NCBI RefSeq assembly: GCF_011734195.1
Contig: NZ_JAANTH010000002.1
Location: 1,054,001-1,118,000 of the forward strand
DNA from: Halobacterium sp. R2-5
GTDB lineage: Archaea > Halobacteriota > Halobacteria > Halobacteriales > Halobacteriaceae
Length of the DNA: 64,000 nucleotides
Reading direction: 5' to 3'
The notes below the pieces were generated by a model. That model was not told the origin of the DNA and made no database searches. It saw only the letters and a program-made list of their open reading frames with translations. The translations under genes were made by a program, and so were the position numbers. This document shows, piece by piece, positions 2,789 through 61,350 of this stretch. Position 1 is the stretch's first letter. Each line of letters starts with the position of its first letter.

Positions 2789-3427
2789 TCAGTAGCCGGT
2801 GCCGAGGTAGGTGTGGACGTGGTCGCCGGATTCGAGTTCGTCCACGAACGCGACCGCGAAGTCCTCCATGGAGATGTAGCTCTCGCCGTCATCGTCGGCG
2901 ACGAGTTCGCCCTCCGCGGTCCGGTACTCGCCCGTGCGCTCGCCGGGTTCGATGAGCGCCGCGGGCGCGACGTACGTCCACTCCAGGTCGTCGGCCGCGC
3001 TAATCACGTCGTAGGCGTCGATGGCCGCGCGAGCAATCGGGACCCAGTCTTCGGGGAAGTCCTCCGTTTCGACCAGCCGGGTGTCCGGACCGACGTAGAG
3101 GCCGCCCGCGCCGCCCGTCCAGACGAGGCGGTCGACGCCCGCATCCCGCATCCCCGCGACGACCGCTTCGGACATCTCCACGAGCACGTCTACGTCCTCG
3201 TCTTCGCCGGGACCGAGCGCGGACGCCACCGCGTCGTGGCCCTCCGCGAGGTCCGCGACGTCGACCTCGTTGGTGGCGTCGATCGCGACGGTTTCGAAGT
3301 CCGGGTCGTCGATGCCGTCGACGTGGCCACTCCGGGAGACGCCAGTTACGGTGTGCCCGCGGGACAAGAGTTCGTCCGCGATCCGGTGGCCGATGCGTCC
3401 GCTCGCGCCCAGGAGGAGTACGTCCAT
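2789..3427 (-). CDS. NAD(P)-binding protein, NmrA/SDR-a5-like
   Basis: A 212-residue Rossmann-fold protein starting M-D-V-L-L-L-G-A-S-G-R-I-G-H, with the G-x-x-G-x-x-G dinucleotide-binding loop at residues 7-13. The rest (V-D-R-L-V-W-T-G-G-A-G-G-L about residue 90, and a C-terminal I-S-M-E-D-F-A-V-A-F) matches the atypical SDR group that includes YwnB and NmrA-like NAD(P)-binding proteins. These often act as redox sensors or flavin/quinone reductases. There is no classical Y-x-x-x-K site. An upstream start at 3457 exists, but the Rossmann strand begins at the ATG at 3427. Convergent with the aldo/keto reductase. Confidence 0.8.
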   Translation of the reverse strand: MDVLLLGASGRIGHRIADELLSRGHTVTGVSRSGHVDGIDDPDFETVAIDATNEVDVADLAEGHDAVASALGPGEDEDVDVLVEMSEAVVAGMRDAGVDRLVWTGGAGGLYVGPDTRLVETEDFPEDWVPIARAAIDAYDVISAADDLEWTYVAPAALIEPGERTGEYRTAEGELVADDDGESYISMEDFAVAFVDELESGDHVHTYLGTGY

Positions 3428-3498
3428 GTCGCGTCTACGTTCGTCGGGCACCGACATATGGGTTTGCGAAGCGACACGTAAGGTACGGTTCCGGCGCC

Positions 3499-3918
3499 CT
3501 ACTCCTCGCGGCGCGCCTGCCGGACCGCGTCAGCTATTTCGTCCGGGTGGTCGGCGGCGACCCGGAGCACAGCGTCGTGGAGCTCCCGTTTCTCCTCGTT
3601 CCGGATGCCGGCGTCTCGGAGCGAGCGCACGACGTCCAGGTCGAGCGCGTCCTCGAGCGCCGTCCACGCCTCCGGCCGCGCGTACATCGGGGACTGCTTC
3701 ACGTCGTCGTACTCGAACGCGGGCGTGTCGCTGACCGCCGGTTCCGGGGACTCCTTCTCGGGTTCCGAATCGGCCGTCTCCTCCGCCGTCGAGTCGGGCG
3801 TCGACGACCCGGCCGGAACCTCGGGCGCCGCGTCGGGTTCCGGCTCGCTCGCTTCCGTTTCCTCGTCCTGCTTGTCCGGGCGGTCCTGCTCGGCGGCTTC
3901 GAGGTCGTCGAACCCCAT
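3499..3918 (-). CDS. Acidic partner protein encoded with ParA
   Basis: A 139-residue protein whose first about 75 residues are almost entirely Glu, Asp, Pro, Ser and Thr (intrinsically disordered). The last about 60 residues (F-E-Y-D-D-V-K-Q-S-P-M-Y to the R-R-E-E end) form predicted helices with some basic residues. Its ATG overlaps the ParA stop codon (TAATG at 3916-3920), so the two are translationally coupled. No ParB domain or recognisable helix-turn-helix is present. By position it could be the centromere-binding or adaptor partner of this ParA. Function is inferred from coupling only. Confidence 0.75.
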   Translation of the reverse strand: MGFDDLEAAEQDRPDKQDEETEASEPEPDAAPEVPAGSSTPDSTAEETADSEPEKESPEPAVSDTPAFEYDDVKQSPMYARPEAWTALEDALDLDVVRSLRDAGIRNEEKRELHDAVLRVAADHPDEIADAVRQARREE

Positions 3919-4793
3919 TACCGGCTCACCTCCCCGCGCTCGACGATCTGCGCGAGCTCGTCGTAGGCCGCGAGCTGGTCGCACTCGGGGTCGTAGTCCC
4001 GCAGCGGCACGCCCTCCTGGTGGGCGTCGTCGATGGCCGCGCGGTACCGGACGCCCGGCAGGTCGCCGTCGTAGCTCCCGTCGTCGATGGCTTCCCAGTC
4101 GTCCTCGGAGAGGTACGCGAAGTTCGGGACGAGGTGGTCAATGGCGTCCCGCGTCGTGATCTCGCGGAGGAGCTTGCGGTCCCGGGTCGACTGGTCGATG
4201 CGCTTGCGGAGGTCCGAGGGGACGACCGCGAGGATGTCCAACTCGAAGTACTCGCGGGCCTCCTGGACGAGCCGGTCGAGCGTGTTCGACAGCCCGGTCT
4301 CGTAGCCGTTCTCAGGCCGCAGCGGGATGATGAGGTTCCCGGTGGCGTACATCGCGTTGTCGTTGAGCTTCCCGCGGTTCGCGGGGCAGTCGATGACCAC
4401 GTAGTCGTAGTCCTCGCCGAGCAGCGGGTCGACGAGGTCCTTCTTCAGTCGCGTCGTCCCCATCGTCGCCTCCTTGAGCGCGGACTGCACGCTCTCGAGG
4501 TCCTCGTGGGCGGGGAAGAGGTCCAGTCCCTCGGCGACGTTGACGACGTGCTCGCGCGGGTCCTCGCCTTCGAGGAGGACGGCCTCGGCGTGGTTGCTGC
4601 CGTCCTCGTCCGTGCTGTTGTACCGCTGCTCGAACCCGAGGTTGAGCGTCATGTGCCCGTTGTCGTCGAGGTCGACGACGAGCGCGCGCTCGTTGCGGTG
4701 CGCGAGTTCGCGCGCGAGGTTGAGCGCTGTGGTCGTCTTCGCGAATCCACCCTTCAGGATACCGACACTGACGGCGCGTGGTTCCGTTTGCAT
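3918..4793 (-). CDS. ParA-family partition ATPase
   Basis: A 291-residue P-loop ATPase of the ParA/Soj/MinD superfamily. The deviant Walker A motif K-G-G-F-A-K-T-T lies at residues 14-21, with the signature lysine in first position. The switch I region V-D-L-D-D-N-G-H appears near residue 45 and the Walker B-like strand V-V-I-D-C-P-A-N-R near residue 130. These proteins form ATP-dependent DNA-bound gradients that segregate plasmids or chromosomes. The start at 4793 (M-Q-T-E-P-R) puts the P-loop at the usual distance; the upstream extension to 4868 is Arg/His-rich and unlike haloarchaeal protein. No ParB gene is adjacent. A cluster of palindromes lies immediately upstream. Confidence 0.92.
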   Translation of the reverse strand: MQTEPRAVSVGILKGGFAKTTTALNLARELAHRNERALVVDLDDNGHMTLNLGFEQRYNSTDEDGSNHAEAVLLEGEDPREHVVNVAEGLDLFPAHEDLESVQSALKEATMGTTRLKKDLVDPLLGEDYDYVVIDCPANRGKLNDNAMYATGNLIIPLRPENGYETGLSNTLDRLVQEAREYFELDILAVVPSDLRKRIDQSTRDRKLLREITTRDAIDHLVPNFAYLSEDDWEAIDDGSYDGDLPGVRYRAAIDDAHQEGVPLRDYDPECDQLAAYDELAQIVERGEVSR

Positions 4794-4810
4794 TGTGTAC
4801 CTCGTCAGGG

Positions 4811-4974
4811 ATAGGCACCTATCGCGTCTGTGGTGCCTACGCTGAATCAGGTGGCCATTCCTCGCCACCAGGCATAAAACGACGGGAATAGGTAGCAGAG
4901 GTAGGTAAAATAGGTACCTAATCTACACCAACTACCTAAGGTAGTATAGGTAAGTAAGCTAGCTCAGCTAGCTT
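4811..4974. repeat. Cluster of TAGGTA-type palindromes upstream of parA (candidate parS/operator)
   Basis: Several inverted repeats occur within 164 bases. ATAGG-CA-CCTAT is at 4811-4822. GGTGGC-N8-GCCACC is at 4850-4869. The perfect palindrome TAGGTACCTA is at 4911-4920. ACTACCT-A-AGGTAGT is at 4931-4945. AAGCTAGCT-C-AGCTAGCTT is at 4956-4974. Single TAGGTA/TACCTA half-sites lie between them (for example 4889-4894, 4902-4906 and 4947-4952). The stretch from 4880 is much more AT-rich than the flanking genes. Partition loci often have such arrays as centromere and autoregulatory operator; that role is inferred here. Confidence 0.6.
4870..4880 (-). promoter_or_regulatory. Candidate parA promoter (TATA on minus strand)
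   Basis: On the minus strand the bases read GTTTTATGCC, a TATA-like element about 27 bases before a start site near 4849. This would give a leader of about 55 bases that contains the ATAGG-CA-CCTAT palindrome at 4811-4822, a layout suited to autoregulation. Confidence 0.4.
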
Positions 4975-5775
4975 GACTACCTTCAGCGGAATTCCGGCGG
5001 TAGTGACGGCACACAGATGTCGCTCCCGGTCGGCGTTCTACTCGCCAGCGAATCGACGAGCGGGCGAGTGCTGGTCGCCGAGGGAATTCACCGCCACTCT
5101 TCCGACTGCAGACCGACAGGCTGGGACCCTGTTCTCGGCGCGAGCGGACCTCCGATTCTACCCCTCTCGAGCCTGGTCTTCCACGTCTTCGCTGTCGGCT
5201 TCGGGCAACGGCTTCCGTATCACGGTATCCGATTTATCGACGCCGTGGGACCCGGTCCACTCGCGGTACGCACCTGCTGATTGCTCGGCATCGACTGAAC
5301 CGAAAACGGACCAGGCAACTTCCGGCGGATGGGGAGCTTGCTTCGCAGACGCGGTTCACACCTCGGTCTGGCGGCGAGTGGTGAGGGTCCCCTCCTTATT
5401 CGTGTGCCACATTCGCAGGCACCTCGGCGATGTGGATTTTGCGTAATTTCCGCCCATCGCTGGTCGGGCTTCGAGGACGAACTACTGGAACCCTCGGCGT
5501 CTGGCAGTAACTCTCGTGCTCGCGAGCGCGCACGCGAGGCGGCCCGGTTTGTCTACTCGATTCGACGACCGCCCGAGCGACAGCCTCGTCGACGAACAAG
5601 CGGGGGCCGAGAGATATTGTCGGAGGGAGACACGATCAGTGTGAGCCCTCAGATGCGAGCGAGTGACTGTGGTTGTCCCTCCCGTTTCGCCGCCGAGAGC
5701 GAAAATCAGTCCCGGAGCCACCATCGATAAACCGTATACTGGGATATCGAAAGTCGGCCGTCCGTGCCAGAGAGA
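4975..5775. other. Non-coding, less GC-rich stretch between parA and the AOR gene
   Basis: About 800 bases with no convincing gene. The open frames here (for example 4973-5446 plus and 5396-5599 minus) translate to Ser/Arg/Pro-rich sequence without the acidic bias of real genes in this genome, and they match no family I recognise. Base composition is visibly less GC-biased than on either side. It could be degraded plasmid or mobile DNA, or part of a replication/partition region. No tRNA or terminal inverted repeats were recognised. Confidence 0.5.
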
Positions 5776-5811: not shown

Positions 5812-7479
5812 ATGCTCCACAGCAAGGGACCGCTGGTGTCCATCGACGTCGGCGAGCGCGAGGCGTCGGAGACCGACATCACACAGGTCCAACGGCAGTA
5901 CATCGGTGGGCGTGGCGTGGCGACGCGGCTCGCACACGAACGCATCCCGTTCGACGCGGACCCGTTCGGGCCGGAGAACCGCGCAGTGTTCACGACGGGG
6001 CCGATGCAGGCCTCTCAGATGAGCTTCACTGGACGGACGAACTGCACGGCGCTGTCGCCGCTGACGGACGGCCTGCTGTCCTCGAACGCGGGCGGGTTCG
6101 TCTCCAGGCACCTCGCGGCCACGGGCTACGGCGCCGTCGAGCTCGCGGGCGCGAGCGACGAACTACTCGCCGTCCACGTCACCGACGAGGGCGTGGAGTT
6201 CGAGGAAGTCCCCCAGTTAGAGGAAGCCACCGTCTCGGAGACGGTCGAGTACCTGGAGGACGAGCACGGCATCTCCAGCGACCAGACCGCAGTCATCGGG
6301 CCGGCGGGCGAGCACGAGGTGCGGTTCGCGTCGGTCATGACGACCGAGGAGCGCGCGTTCGGGCGTGGTGGGCTCGGTGCCGTCCTGGGCTCGAAGAACG
6401 TCAAGGCCGTCACGTTCGAGGGCGACTCCGCGCCGGACATCGAGGTGCCGGCGGGCCAGATGGACATCCACCGCGAGGCCGCCACTGACGACCACATCAT
6501 GAAGCGGCAGGGCACGGTCTCGGTGATGGACCTCGCCAACGAGATGGACGGCCTGCCGTCGTACTACTTCTCCGAGCGCTCCTTCGAGGGCGTCGAGGGC
6601 ATCAACGGCGCCGCCGTCGAGTCGAAGAAGTACAAGAAGGCGACGTGTTCGGCGTGCGCGTTCGCGTGCAAGCTCCCGACGCGGGACGAAGAGCGCGGCG
6701 TGGAGACGGAGGGCCCGGAGTTCGAGGTGGCGATGGCGTTCGGCTCTAATTCGGGCGTCGACGACATCGTCGACGTGATGCAGTCGAACGAGCTCTGCGA
6801 CGAGTACGGCCTCGACGCCATCTCCGCGGGGAACACCATCGCGGCGTACCTCGACGCCGAGGACGAGTTCGGGAACACCGACCTCATCTGGGAGCTCGTC
6901 GAGCAGATCGCGCACCGCGAGGGCGTCGGCGACCGGCTCGCGGAGGGCATCGGGCGCATCCACGACGACCTCGGCGTCGAGAACTGGTCGGTGAAGAACA
7001 TGGACTTCGCGGCCCACGAGGGGCGGCTCCTCCACGGGCAGGGGCTGTCGTACGCGGTGGCGAACCGCGGCGCCGACCACATGTACGCGACGTTCTACTC
7101 CGTGGAGTACCCGCTCGTCGACGAAGACGAAGCCATGGACCCCGCGGGCTTCGACGGGAAGCCCGAGCGCCTCGTCGAGCGCGAGAACCTGATGGCGCTC
7201 AACGACAGCGGCGTCGTCTGCAAATTCTCCCGGGACTTCATGTCCCCGGAGCGCTACGAGATGCTGTTCGGCGCGGACTTCCAGGACTTGCTGGAGGTGG
7301 GCGCGCGCACGGTGACGCTCGAACGTCACTTCAACAACCAGCGCGGCATCGACGAGGCCGACGACCGCCTCCCCTACGAGGACGAGCTCCCCGGCCTCGA
7401 CGACGCCATCCAGACGTACTACGACGTCCGCGGCTGGAACGACGACGGGACGGTCCCGGAGACGGCGCTGCCCGCGTAG
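5812..7479 (+). CDS. Aldehyde ferredoxin oxidoreductase (tungsten/molybdopterin)
   Basis: A 555-residue AOR-family enzyme oxidising aldehydes to carboxylates with reduction of ferredoxin. The N-terminal domain holds the tungstopterin-binding section (Y-I-G-G-R-G-V-A-T-R-L, T-G-P-M-Q-A and F-G-R-G-G-L-G-A-V-L-G-S-K-N-V-K). The [4Fe-4S] ligands are Cys279, Cys282 and Cys286 (C-x2-C-x3-C), with a C-terminal Cys470 in V-V-C-K-F. Length is slightly below the usual about 600 residues. The start is ATG 5812 or GTG 5806, both fitting the TATA position. The stop is directly followed by the convergent M20 gene. It may oxidise aldehydes released by the neighbouring aminotransferases and oxidases (inference). 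Confidence 0.88.
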   Translation: MLHSKGPLVSIDVGEREASETDITQVQRQYIGGRGVATRLAHERIPFDADPFGPENRAVFTTGPMQASQMSFTGRTNCTALSPLTDGLLSSNAGGFVSRHLAATGYGAVELAGASDELLAVHVTDEGVEFEEVPQLEEATVSETVEYLEDEHGISSDQTAVIGPAGEHEVRFASVMTTEERAFGRGGLGAVLGSKNVKAVTFEGDSAPDIEVPAGQMDIHREAATDDHIMKRQGTVSVMDLANEMDGLPSYYFSERSFEGVEGINGAAVESKKYKKATCSACAFACKLPTRDEERGVETEGPEFEVAMAFGSNSGVDDIVDVMQSNELCDEYGLDAISAGNTIAAYLDAEDEFGNTDLIWELVEQIAHREGVGDRLAEGIGRIHDDLGVENWSVKNMDFAAHEGRLLHGQGLSYAVANRGADHMYATFYSVEYPLVDEDEAMDPAGFDGKPERLVERENLMALNDSGVVCKFSRDFMSPERYEMLFGADFQDLLEVGARTVTLERHFNNQRGIDEADDRLPYEDELPGLDDAIQTYYDVRGWNDDGTVPETALPA

Positions 7480-59279: not shown

Positions 59280-60656
59280 GTGAACTTACAGCGCCTGTTC
59301 CGGCCCGAGCGTATCGCAGTCGTCGGCGCCTCCGCGACCGAGGGGAAACTCGGCTACGAGGCGATGGCGAACGCCGTCGAGTTCGACGGTGAGGTGTACC
59401 CGGTGAACCCGTCCGGCGAGGGCGAGGTCTTCGGCGAGCCGTTCGTGGAGTCCGTCACGGACATCGAGGAGACCGTCGACCTCGCGCTGCTGGCGGTACC
59501 GGCACACGTCGTGCCGGACGTCGTCGAGGAGTGCGGCGAGGCCGGCGTCGGCGGCGCGGTCATCTACGCTGGCGGCTTCGCGGAGGCCGGCGGCGAGGGC
59601 GAAGAACTTCAGGAGGCCGTCGTCGCGGCGGCCGACGAGCACGACGTCGCGCTGCTCGGCCCGAACACGAGCGGGTTCGTCGCGCCCGCGAGCAACCTGC
59701 TGGCGTCGTTCGCCGGGGGCGTCGAGCGCCTGCGCCCGGGCGGCGTGACGATCCTCGCGCAGAGCGGCGGGGTCGCCCACCAGTTGGCGTTCAGCGCACA
59801 CCGCGAGGGCCGCGGCATCGCGACGATGGTCGGGCTCGGAAACCGCGCGAACGTCGGCTTCGAGGAGGCCATCCCGTACTTCGATTCGGACCCGAACACG
59901 GACGCCATCGTGCTCCACGTCGAGGGCACCGACGACGGCCGCGCGCTCCTCGAAGCGTGCCGCGAGTCGGACACCCCCGTAATCGCGTACAAGGTCGGCC
60001 AGGCCGACGTCGGCGACTTCGCGGAGTCCCACACGGGCGCGCTCACCGGCGACCACGCGCTCTACACTTCGGGGTTCGCCCAGTACGGCGTCCCGACGGT
60101 CGAATCGACGACCGAGCTGTTCGACGCGGGGCAGGCGCTCGCGAACTCCCCGGAGCCCGATGGCGCGAACGTCGGCGTCGTCACCGCGCAGGCCGGCCCG
60201 GGAATCATCATCGCGGATCGCCTGCAGCGAGCGGGCGCGACGCTCCCGGACCTCGCGGAGGACACGCAGGACCGCGTCGGCGAGATTCTCCCCGGCATCA
60301 CGTACGCCGAGAACCCCGTGGACACGGGCCGGCCGATGCCCGAGTTCGGCGACGTGGTCGAAGCGGTCGCGGAGGACGACAACGTGGACGCGGTGCTCGT
60401 CTACGAGCTGTTCGAGGAGGCGCTGGGCTTCCCGCAGGAGACGCTGGACGGCCTCGCGGAGCGCGTGGACAAGCCCGTGCTGTTCGCGACCGAGGGGCCG
60501 GCGGAGTCGATGGCCGACGACCTCGCCGCGCTCCGCGAGGCCGACGTGCCGGTGTTCACGTCGCCGGAGCGCGGCGCGGACGCGGCCGCGGTGCTCGCTC
60601 GGTACGCGACGCTCGACGACGCCGCCGCGGACGAGGAGGTGAGCGCCGATGTCTGA
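59280..60656 (+). CDS. Acyl-CoA synthetase (ADP-forming), alpha subunit
   Basis: A 458-residue NDP-forming CoA ligase. The CoA-binding Rossmann domain starts at once (F-R-P-E-R-I-A-V-V-G-A-S near residue 6). The phosphohistidine loop E-S-H-T-G-A-L-T-G contains His251, the residue phosphorylated during catalysis. It makes acyl-CoA from acid, ATP and CoA with release of ADP and phosphate, and runs reversibly to save energy. The start is a leaderless GTG. The beta subunit overlaps by 8 bases. Aryl, acetyl or other acid substrate is unknown; the gentisate block suggests an aromatic acid. Confidence 0.9.
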   Translation: MNLQRLFRPERIAVVGASATEGKLGYEAMANAVEFDGEVYPVNPSGEGEVFGEPFVESVTDIEETVDLALLAVPAHVVPDVVEECGEAGVGGAVIYAGGFAEAGGEGEELQEAVVAAADEHDVALLGPNTSGFVAPASNLLASFAGGVERLRPGGVTILAQSGGVAHQLAFSAHREGRGIATMVGLGNRANVGFEEAIPYFDSDPNTDAIVLHVEGTDDGRALLEACRESDTPVIAYKVGQADVGDFAESHTGALTGDHALYTSGFAQYGVPTVESTTELFDAGQALANSPEPDGANVGVVTAQAGPGIIIADRLQRAGATLPDLAEDTQDRVGEILPGITYAENPVDTGRPMPEFGDVVEAVAEDDNVDAVLVYELFEEALGFPQETLDGLAERVDKPVLFATEGPAESMADDLAALREADVPVFTSPERGADAAAVLARYATLDDAAADEEVSADV

Positions 60657-61350
60657 GGACCCCATCGCGGCCGCGCAGGCCGACGGCCGCACGACGCTCA
60701 CGGAGGCGGAGGCGAAGTCGCTGCTCGCGGGCGCTGGCATCGAGACGCCCGCGTTCTCCGTCGCCGCGGACGCCGACGCCGCAGTGGCGGCCGCGGAGGA
60801 AATCGGTCTCCCGGTTGTCGTGAAGGTCTCCTCGCCGTCGGTCACGCACAAGAGCGAGTGGGCCGAGGGCGCGGGCGTCGCGGTCGGCCTCGACTCCGCG
60901 GACGCGGTGCGGGAGGCCGCCGCGGAAATCTTCGACGCGGCGGACGCGCGCGGCATCGACGCCGACGTGCTCGTGGAGGAAGCGCGCGACGTGGACGCCG
61001 GCACCGAGGTCATCGTCGGCGGCCTCCGCGACCCGTCGTTCGGTCCGGTCGTGCTGACGGGGCTCGGCGGCATCTTCACGGAGGTCTACGAGGACACCAG
61101 CCACCGCATCGCGCCCATCGACGCCGCGGAGGCCCGCGAGGCCATCGAGGAACTGACCGCCATCGAGTTGCTGGAGGGCTATCGTGGCCGCGAGCCCGCG
61201 GACGTCGACGCGCTCGCGGAGGTCGTGGCAGCAGTCGGCGACCTCGTGAACGAACACGAAGCCATCTCGGAGGTCGACGTGAATCCGGTGCTCGCGACCG
61301 AAGAGGGCGCTGTGGCGCTCGACGCGCTCGTCGTGCTGGGGGGTGAGTGA
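60649..61350 (+). CDS. Acyl-CoA synthetase (ADP-forming), beta subunit (ATP-grasp)
   Basis: A 233-residue ATP-grasp subunit. Motifs: L-P-V-V-V-K-V-S-S-P near residue 55, H-K-S-E-W-A-E-G-A-G-V near 65, and G-L-G-G-I-F-T-E-V near 141, all typical of the beta chain that phosphorylates the alpha His with ATP. Co-transcribed with alpha (8-base overlap) and with the following thioesterase gene (1 base apart, or overlapping if its GTG is used). Confidence 0.9.
   Translation: MSEDPIAAAQADGRTTLTEAEAKSLLAGAGIETPAFSVAADADAAVAAAEEIGLPVVVKVSSPSVTHKSEWAEGAGVAVGLDSADAVREAAAEIFDAADARGIDADVLVEEARDVDAGTEVIVGGLRDPSFGPVVLTGLGGIFTEVYEDTSHRIAPIDAAEAREAIEELTAIELLEGYRGREPADVDALAEVVAAVGDLVNEHEAISEVDVNPVLATEEGAVALDALVVLGGE

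Follow-up and report, generated by a model that had tools for sequence, protein, structure and literature searches.

The par locus and its genes

The window analysed here, a stretch of 64,000 nucleotides from Halobacterium sp. R2-5, contains on its minus strand the gene of a ParA/Soj-type ATPase, which is followed by the gene of a small acidic protein and preceded by a cluster of short repeats (Table 1). In ParA, an N-terminal DNA-binding extension or HTH domain is absent: the deviant Walker A motif KGGFAKT occupies residues 14–20 and the AAA_31 match starts at residue 7 of the 291 residues. The nearest solved chains are 4pfs, whose deposited name is cobyrinic acid a,c-diamide synthase, and a number of ParA and Soj proteins, and a search of viral_contigs gave no match for ParA. 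An earlier note on this DNA had described parA as an orphan. This cannot be upheld, since a coupled partner gene starts in the parA stop codon. A ParB-family gene was not found downstream of parA.

Table 1. Positions of the genes and sequence elements of the par locus, counted from the first base of the window
Feature	Position	Strand	Basis
Coupled partner gene, 139-aa acidic protein (candidate centromere-binding protein)	3499–3918	-	Start overlaps parA stop by 1 nt
Partner C-terminal DNA-binding-type domain, residues 72–139	3502–3705	-	AlphaFold models
Partner residues 73–81, predicted DNA-reading strand	3676–3702	-	In the best contiguous column block predicting iteron class (starts at residue 72)
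FDDL motif, partner residues 3–6 (candidate ParA-contact peptide)	3901–3912	-	Conservation; function putative
parA, 291-aa ParA/Soj-type ATPase	3918–4793	-	AAA_31, E 7.1e-29
Perfect palindrome GATAGG-CA-CCTATC in the parA leader, half-sites of the array type (probable operator)	4810–4823		Sequence, conservation
Single half-site TGCCTA in the leader (GTAGGCAC on the minus strand)	4834–4839		Sequence
TATA-like box of the par operon (TTTTAT on the minus strand)	4874–4879	-	Assigned by eye
9-bp iteron array, core nAGSTA on the plus strand (candidate centromere and operator)	4889–4983	-	Sequence, periodicity, genome pattern search

The leader of parA harbors a perfect palindrome, which has a mean pairwise conservation of 0.88 across the seven loci of the genus. 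The earlier note had correctly placed this repeat in the leader, but it extends by one base more on each side than the 4811–4822 given there. Around the single half-site of the leader, GCGTAGG is present in six of the seven genus loci and GCGAAGG in L043, and the TTTAT of the TATA-like box is identical in all seven. The array is located just upstream of this box. Past a gap of about 0.8 kb upstream of the array lies an aldehyde ferredoxin oxidoreductase-type gene (5812–7479, plus strand; AFOR_N and AFOR_C).

A 9-bp iteron array upstream of parA

Nine units follow each other at exact 9-bp steps, with starts from 4902 to 4974 and the last unit ending at 4982. Read in phase these are TAGGTAAAA, TAGGTACCT, AATCTACAC, CAACTACCT and AAGGTAGTA (units 1–5), followed by TAGGTAAGT, AAGCTAGCT, CAGCTAGCT and TGACTACCT (units 6–9). 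Two extra units start at 4889 and 4898 and are shifted in phase by 4 against the main nine. The 100 bp at 4891 reach a 9/18/27 periodicity score of 9.9, which is rank 1 of the 6390 windows scored across the 64 kb (mean −0.01, SD 1.21). The second-best 9-bp periodicity, at 61081–61140, lies inside a coding sequence (60649–61350, plus strand) and is therefore probably a periodicity on the protein level and not an iteron array.

A pattern of four units with at most two mismatches matches eight times in the 2.98-Mb genome, and seven of these eight matches fall into 4889–4983, which is the only such array found in this genome. The reversed pattern gives 17 genome matches, but its composition differs (TSSAT inside), so that it is not a close control. 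The first search motif, TASSTANNNNNTASSTA, gave no match; its spacing was wrong.

The earlier note had read the region as a dense cluster of palindromes. The repeats themselves are real, and the perfect palindromes at 4911–4920, 4931–4945 and 4956–4974 are exact in the sequence. Within 4800–4980, four palindromes (arm length ≥5, loop length ≤2) are present in comparison to 0.71 ± 0.89 in dinucleotide shuffles, and four or more were obtained in 7 of 1000 shuffles. However, the underlying order, namely the iteron array, had been overlooked. As separate features the palindromes were rejected; they arise as a by-product when a quasi-palindromic unit recurs every 9 bp. TACCT/AGGTA occurs in nine copies within 100 bp (4886–4985) versus 58 over all 64 kb. 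A looser inverted repeat is found at 4850–4855/4864–4869, and the A+T content around the repeats is higher than in the flanking DNA.

The same note had proposed that the repeats, and not the intervening bases, should be conserved. Within the genus this is weakly borne out: in the genus alignment, conservation is highest at phases 1 and 4 of the 9-bp unit, but a phase-dependent (9-bp periodic) conservation of the array is not significant there, with 550 of 5000 permutations reaching the observed phase variance.

Distribution of the parA-partner pair

When genome contigs were scanned with ParA, 33 loci were obtained, 29 of them haloarchaeal. The partner family was detected in 200 of 391 haloarchaeal genomes, searched as the class genomes with the partner. 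All 29 loci fetched via the partner (own locus excluded) carry a ParA of the same family adjacent to it, with an identity of at least 45% for most and 35–37% for the rest. Together with the haloarchaeal loci of the ParA scan, six plasmid loci and the window, a set of 65 loci was obtained. Here, a coupled small acidic ORF is present in the window and in all 64 fetched loci, among which the near-duplicates L001/L041, L002/L038 and L015/L057 were kept.

In PLSDB, ParA matches 135 of 72,556 plasmids at E 1e-20. When 60 rows were sampled across the ranking, 59 were haloarchaeal by organism name and one was bacterial. The partner matches 91 plasmid records. Among 14 annotated haloarchaeal plasmid stretches, which include pNRC100/pNRC200 of Halobacterium salinarum NRC-1 (L067, L068), orc1/cdc6 lies within nine (L067, L068, L069, L072, L108, L112, L113, L115 and L116) and was not found within the other five (L070, L071, L109, L110 and L114). 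In L070 (Natrialba magadii pNMAG03, 3977–5138), which has a distant ParA, a match to PHROG 26668 covers the full length of the partner (E 1.1e-88), which places such a pair in a viral or plasmid-prophage element too. L108 and L109, both on Haloprofundus plasmids, are outgroup operons with a gap of 101–173 nt between parA and the partner gene.

Conservation of the array across haloarchaea

The earlier note had suggested a search for the repeats at homologous parA loci, and this search was successful. The periodicity was counted in 64 of the 65 loci, window included, one locus with less than 150 bp upstream being left out. Over the 300 bp preceding parA, lags 9, 18 and 27 have mean z values of 4.4, 4.1 and 3.1 against dinucleotide shuffles, while all other lags from 4 to 33 remain between −0.8 and 0.9; the signal fades farther upstream and downstream of the operon. 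A 9-bp array (combined z > 3) is present in 58 of the 64 testable loci. The six failing loci are L020, which fails clearly (0.4), and L070, L043, L065, L057 and L015, which reach 2.1–2.9. None of the 64 loci passes for the period triples of 7, 8, 10 or 11; the 6/12/18 triple, which shares lag 18, is passed by nine.

Arrays are also found in seven of eight more distant plasmid loci with enough upstream DNA. The exception L108 has lag 17 instead, and the repeat pitch may thus differ between subfamilies. ParAs outside the family served as negative controls (the bacterial loci L030–L033 and L117, and L036 of the own genome), and a 9-bp array was found in none of these six. The bacterial relatives L030, L032 and L117 have a ParB-like protein and no 9-bp array.

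The letters of the unit change by clade. Besides the TAGGTA/TAGCTA types, of which TAGGTA is the class of the window, TTCGTACGA is found in Haladaptatus, as in L006, TCTACTCTG in L011/L067, CTATTC in L027–L029/L068 and TGTACAA in L005/L012. Across haloarchaea, the array is conserved as a form and not as a sequence. Systems of the same cell usually differ in class, as do L002/L011, L008/L027, L006/L028, L010/L029 and L067/L068. Against this tendency, one contig of Halogranum amylolyticum (NZ_FODV01000011.1) harbors two closely related operons, L024 and L025, with similar iterons and with ParAs that are 58–59% identical to that of the window.

The sequences thus show that the ParA gene, the overlapping gene of the acidic partner and the upstream 9-bp array are kept as a unit across haloarchaea.

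The acidic partner protein

The partner displays an FDDL N-terminus, an acidic linker and a conserved C-terminal domain. F3, D5 and L6 are each shared by at least 90% of 50 partners, and a conserved arginine column was not found in the N-terminal part of these 50. For the window partner, no family match was obtained in Pfam, NCBIfam or PHROGs and no match in 'phages'. The 50 partners give scattered Pfam matches to unrelated families, none of which is ParB.

AlphaFold predicts helices at residues 82–102, 110–123 and 125–138 with a pLDDT mostly above 90. Residues 11–60 are of low confidence, and an uncertain extended segment precedes the helix at 82. In the single-chain models this pre-helix strand is left as coil, which is not decisive because an intermolecular ribbon needs more than one chain. 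Foldseek gave no confident fold match among PDB or viral structures. The best PDB row of a second look, and the single one above Z 2, is the plasmid gene regulator Reg576, whose values (Z 2.2, rmsd 8.9 over 55 residues) are too weak to count.

On the profile level, neither hhalign nor hmmsearch detected a relation of the partner domain to 26 haloarchaeal RHH_1 proteins, and a profile built from the 50 partners matched no related PDB chain and no SegB by sequence. The outgroup partners L070, L108 and L109 align to the family at 95.8% probability with a query that excludes them, and weakly, at 21%, to RHH_1. We infer that the C-terminal domain may have a ribbon-helix-helix-like fold. RHH proteins read DNA via alternate residues of the strand that directly precedes the helix.

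The iteron sequence varies with the partner

The similarity of upstream 5-mer profiles was compared with protein identity in 61 loci with distinct partners. Iteron similarity correlates with the identity of the partner C-terminus (rho 0.62) and less with that of ParA (0.32); as partial correlations these become 0.58 and 0.15, respectively, and none of 999 label permutations reaches the partner value. Pairs of loci with ParAs 60–80% identical and partner C-termini below 42% have no common iteron signal (282 pairs, median 0.03). In contrast, pairs with ParAs below 50% and partner C-termini of at least 50% identity have an iteron signal in common (80 pairs, median 0.28).

A column scan of 60 loci (L070 left out), with overall identity removed, revealed partner residues 75 (0.52) and 77 (0.42) as the best columns predicting the iteron class, with residue 73 at 0.31. 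Outside of the segment 72–81, columns 124, 118 and 108 exceed 0.3. Columns 72–81 have a mean partial value of 0.23 versus 0.05 elsewhere, which is reached in 2 of 20,000 column permutations; these treat related loci as independent, and phylogenetic relatedness is partly left in the covariation tests. The concentration persists for pairs below 70% and below 55% identity (2 and 5 of 20,000), and it is not seen with control DNA inside parA or downstream of the partner gene (1915 and 13,532 of 20,000).

These statistics indicate that the iteron sequence follows the C-terminal domain of the partner, most strongly its pre-helix strand-like segment, and not ParA. The earlier note had expected the DNA-binding partner to be a new protein. 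It need not be looked for away from the operon: the covariation between the iterons and the C-terminal domain of the coupled acidic protein makes the latter a strong candidate.

A probable chromosomal copy in Halobacterium

The window is located at about 1.06 Mb of contig C2, at a distance of about 172 kb from the nearest orc1/cdc6 gene of that contig. In six of seven distinct Halobacterium loci, an NAD-binding gene (2789–3430 in the window) follows the partner gene, suggesting that the site is old and was inherited in place. Contig size and synteny together indicate that the Halobacterium copy is probably chromosomal. The partner is present in 8 of 13 Halobacterium genomes, own included; segregation in the genus therefore cannot depend on this operon alone.

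A second ParA of the same genome, L035 (G000:C3:198140-198736 and downstream), is 31% identical and is encoded on a contig with two orc1/cdc6 genes. It has its own coupled acidic protein with a different C-terminal type, and its upstream repeats occur at lags 13, 9 and 26. L035 had been scripted as a negative control and, with a similar acidic partner and S9 = 2.9, was counted apart. It is likely a sister partition system.

Comparison with known partition systems

Type Ib systems (TP228 ParFGH, pSM19035 delta-omega and pCXC100 ParAB) are described in PMC5016525 as having a small ParA without HTH domain, a small binding protein with a disordered N-terminus and a C-terminal DNA-binding domain, and repeats upstream of the par operon, the binding protein doubling as repressor. 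The module described here is similar in its deviant Walker A ParA without N-terminal HTH domain, in the small partner gene directly downstream (window and 64 of 64 fetched loci) and in the upstream repeats, whose presence is known from the sequence in 58 of 64 loci. The iterons of pCXC100 are reportedly 9 bp long as well. On the contrary, this module is haloarchaeal, its partner has an acidic linker and a sequence unrelated to any Pfam or NCBIfam family, and an arginine conserved in the N-terminus, as in type Ib partners, was not seen among the 50 partners. Furthermore, the RHH fold is putative here, and the iteron letters diversify into several classes.

For SegAB of the Sulfolobales and others, a ParA-type SegA, an overlap of the segA 3' end with segB, and an archaea-specific RHH protein SegB with sites upstream of the operon are reported (PMC5120986, PMC12284271, PMC9178275). 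The SegB sites are presented as isolated imperfect palindromes of 13 bp with the consensus STAGASTCTAKAG, dispersed on the chromosome (PMC12284271). The operon layout is shared; however, the contiguous nAGSTA iterons are, compared by eye, unlike STAGASTCTAKAG and form one array in the genome, and the partner profile, run against PDB chains, matched no SegB. Also, ParA resembles bacterial ParAs more closely than it does the SOJ chain 7dut, which we take to be SegA.

The AspA-ParB-ParA system of pNOB8 is an archaeal plasmid partition system with a centromere-binding protein other than ParB, according to its description in PMC9178275. It is set apart by its gene count, three genes in contrast to two here. 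With canonical ParABS, whose ParB is a CTPase, the module has the ParA-type motor and the operon layout in common. It differs in that no ParB-family gene lies downstream and that, by Pfam, the partner has no ParB-family N-terminal or HTH domain.

The module would work like type Ib partition and resembles SegAB in layout, and it is placed in neither, because the N-terminal arginine was not found and the SegB type of site is not present.

A proposed partition system and its alternatives

We consider it probable, as far as the sequences tell, that the locus is a DNA-partition operon comprising two genes and a cis site of its own. In this system, ParA would be the motor, the partner the binder and repressor, and the array both centromere and operator. 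The centromere/operator proposed next to parA by the earlier note is the best-supported reading, but with the iterons as the element rather than the palindromes. Here, partner dimers with an RHH-like domain would line up along successive 9-bp units and form the centromere as a complex with the DNA. By also covering the promoter, the partner would repress the operon. Its disordered acidic N-terminus with the FDDL motif may contact nucleoid-bound ParA-ATP and trigger hydrolysis, by which the replicon would be moved. For plasmid-borne copies this would mean partition of the plasmid. The Halobacterium copy may help to place the chromosome, or may represent a domesticated plasmid module.

It is unlikely that the array is an operator only, with the partner as an autorepressor which sets the expression of the parA operon and has no centromere role, although the TATA-like box adjoins the array, the leader holds a palindrome and a single array in the own genome is as expected for an operator. 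The arrays are often well over 100 bp long, with up to at least 20 units in the best-scoring iteron stack, which is beyond the need of an operator, and the operon adjoins orc1/cdc6 on many plasmids. This latter neighborhood would fit to iterons of a replication origin, bound by Orc1/Cdc6 or another initiator. Such an origin is very improbable, since the array persists in the window at about 172 kb from the nearest orc1/cdc6 of the contig and since the repeats track the C-terminal domain of the partner.

Type Ia ParA proteins read repeats at their own promoters, and the repeats here are likewise found at the parA promoter. Nevertheless, that ParA itself reads them and the acidic protein merely stimulates its ATPase is hardly conceivable, with no N-terminal DNA-binding extension in ParA and with iteron similarity following the partner C-terminus in the pair comparison (medians 0.03 versus 0.28). 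Chance or composition, as in a low-complexity promoter which is A+T-richer than its surroundings, has a negligible probability, since in 58 of 64 loci the periodicity is above that of dinucleotide shuffles, and the letters differ by clade.

Beyond the partition operon itself, the chances appear evenly balanced for a wider proposal. The loci would represent a single, as yet unnamed haloarchaeal partition family with a new class of centromere binder, which reads contiguous 9-bp iterons via residues 73, 75 and 77 of one strand. The domain and the iterons would change together, giving rise to compatibility groups which allow several plasmids per cell, and the chromosomal copy of Halobacterium would segregate or position the polyploid chromosome.

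Significance

The nature of the centromeres on archaeal chromosomes and plasmids is named as an outstanding question in PMC5120986, and soj genes on pNRC100/200 are reported to respond to a deletion of cdrS (PMC7439475). Among the papers listed by a full-text search, judged from titles and abstract openings, none was on this partner family or on haloarchaeal 9-bp arrays.

How large plasmids and polyploid chromosomes are shared out in haloarchaea is poorly understood. The loci described here would provide named candidates for the motor, the adaptor and the centromere, including those on pNRC100 and pNRC200 of Halobacterium salinarum NRC-1, together with a hypothesis of specificity that is testable by an exchange of three residues or of nine bases.
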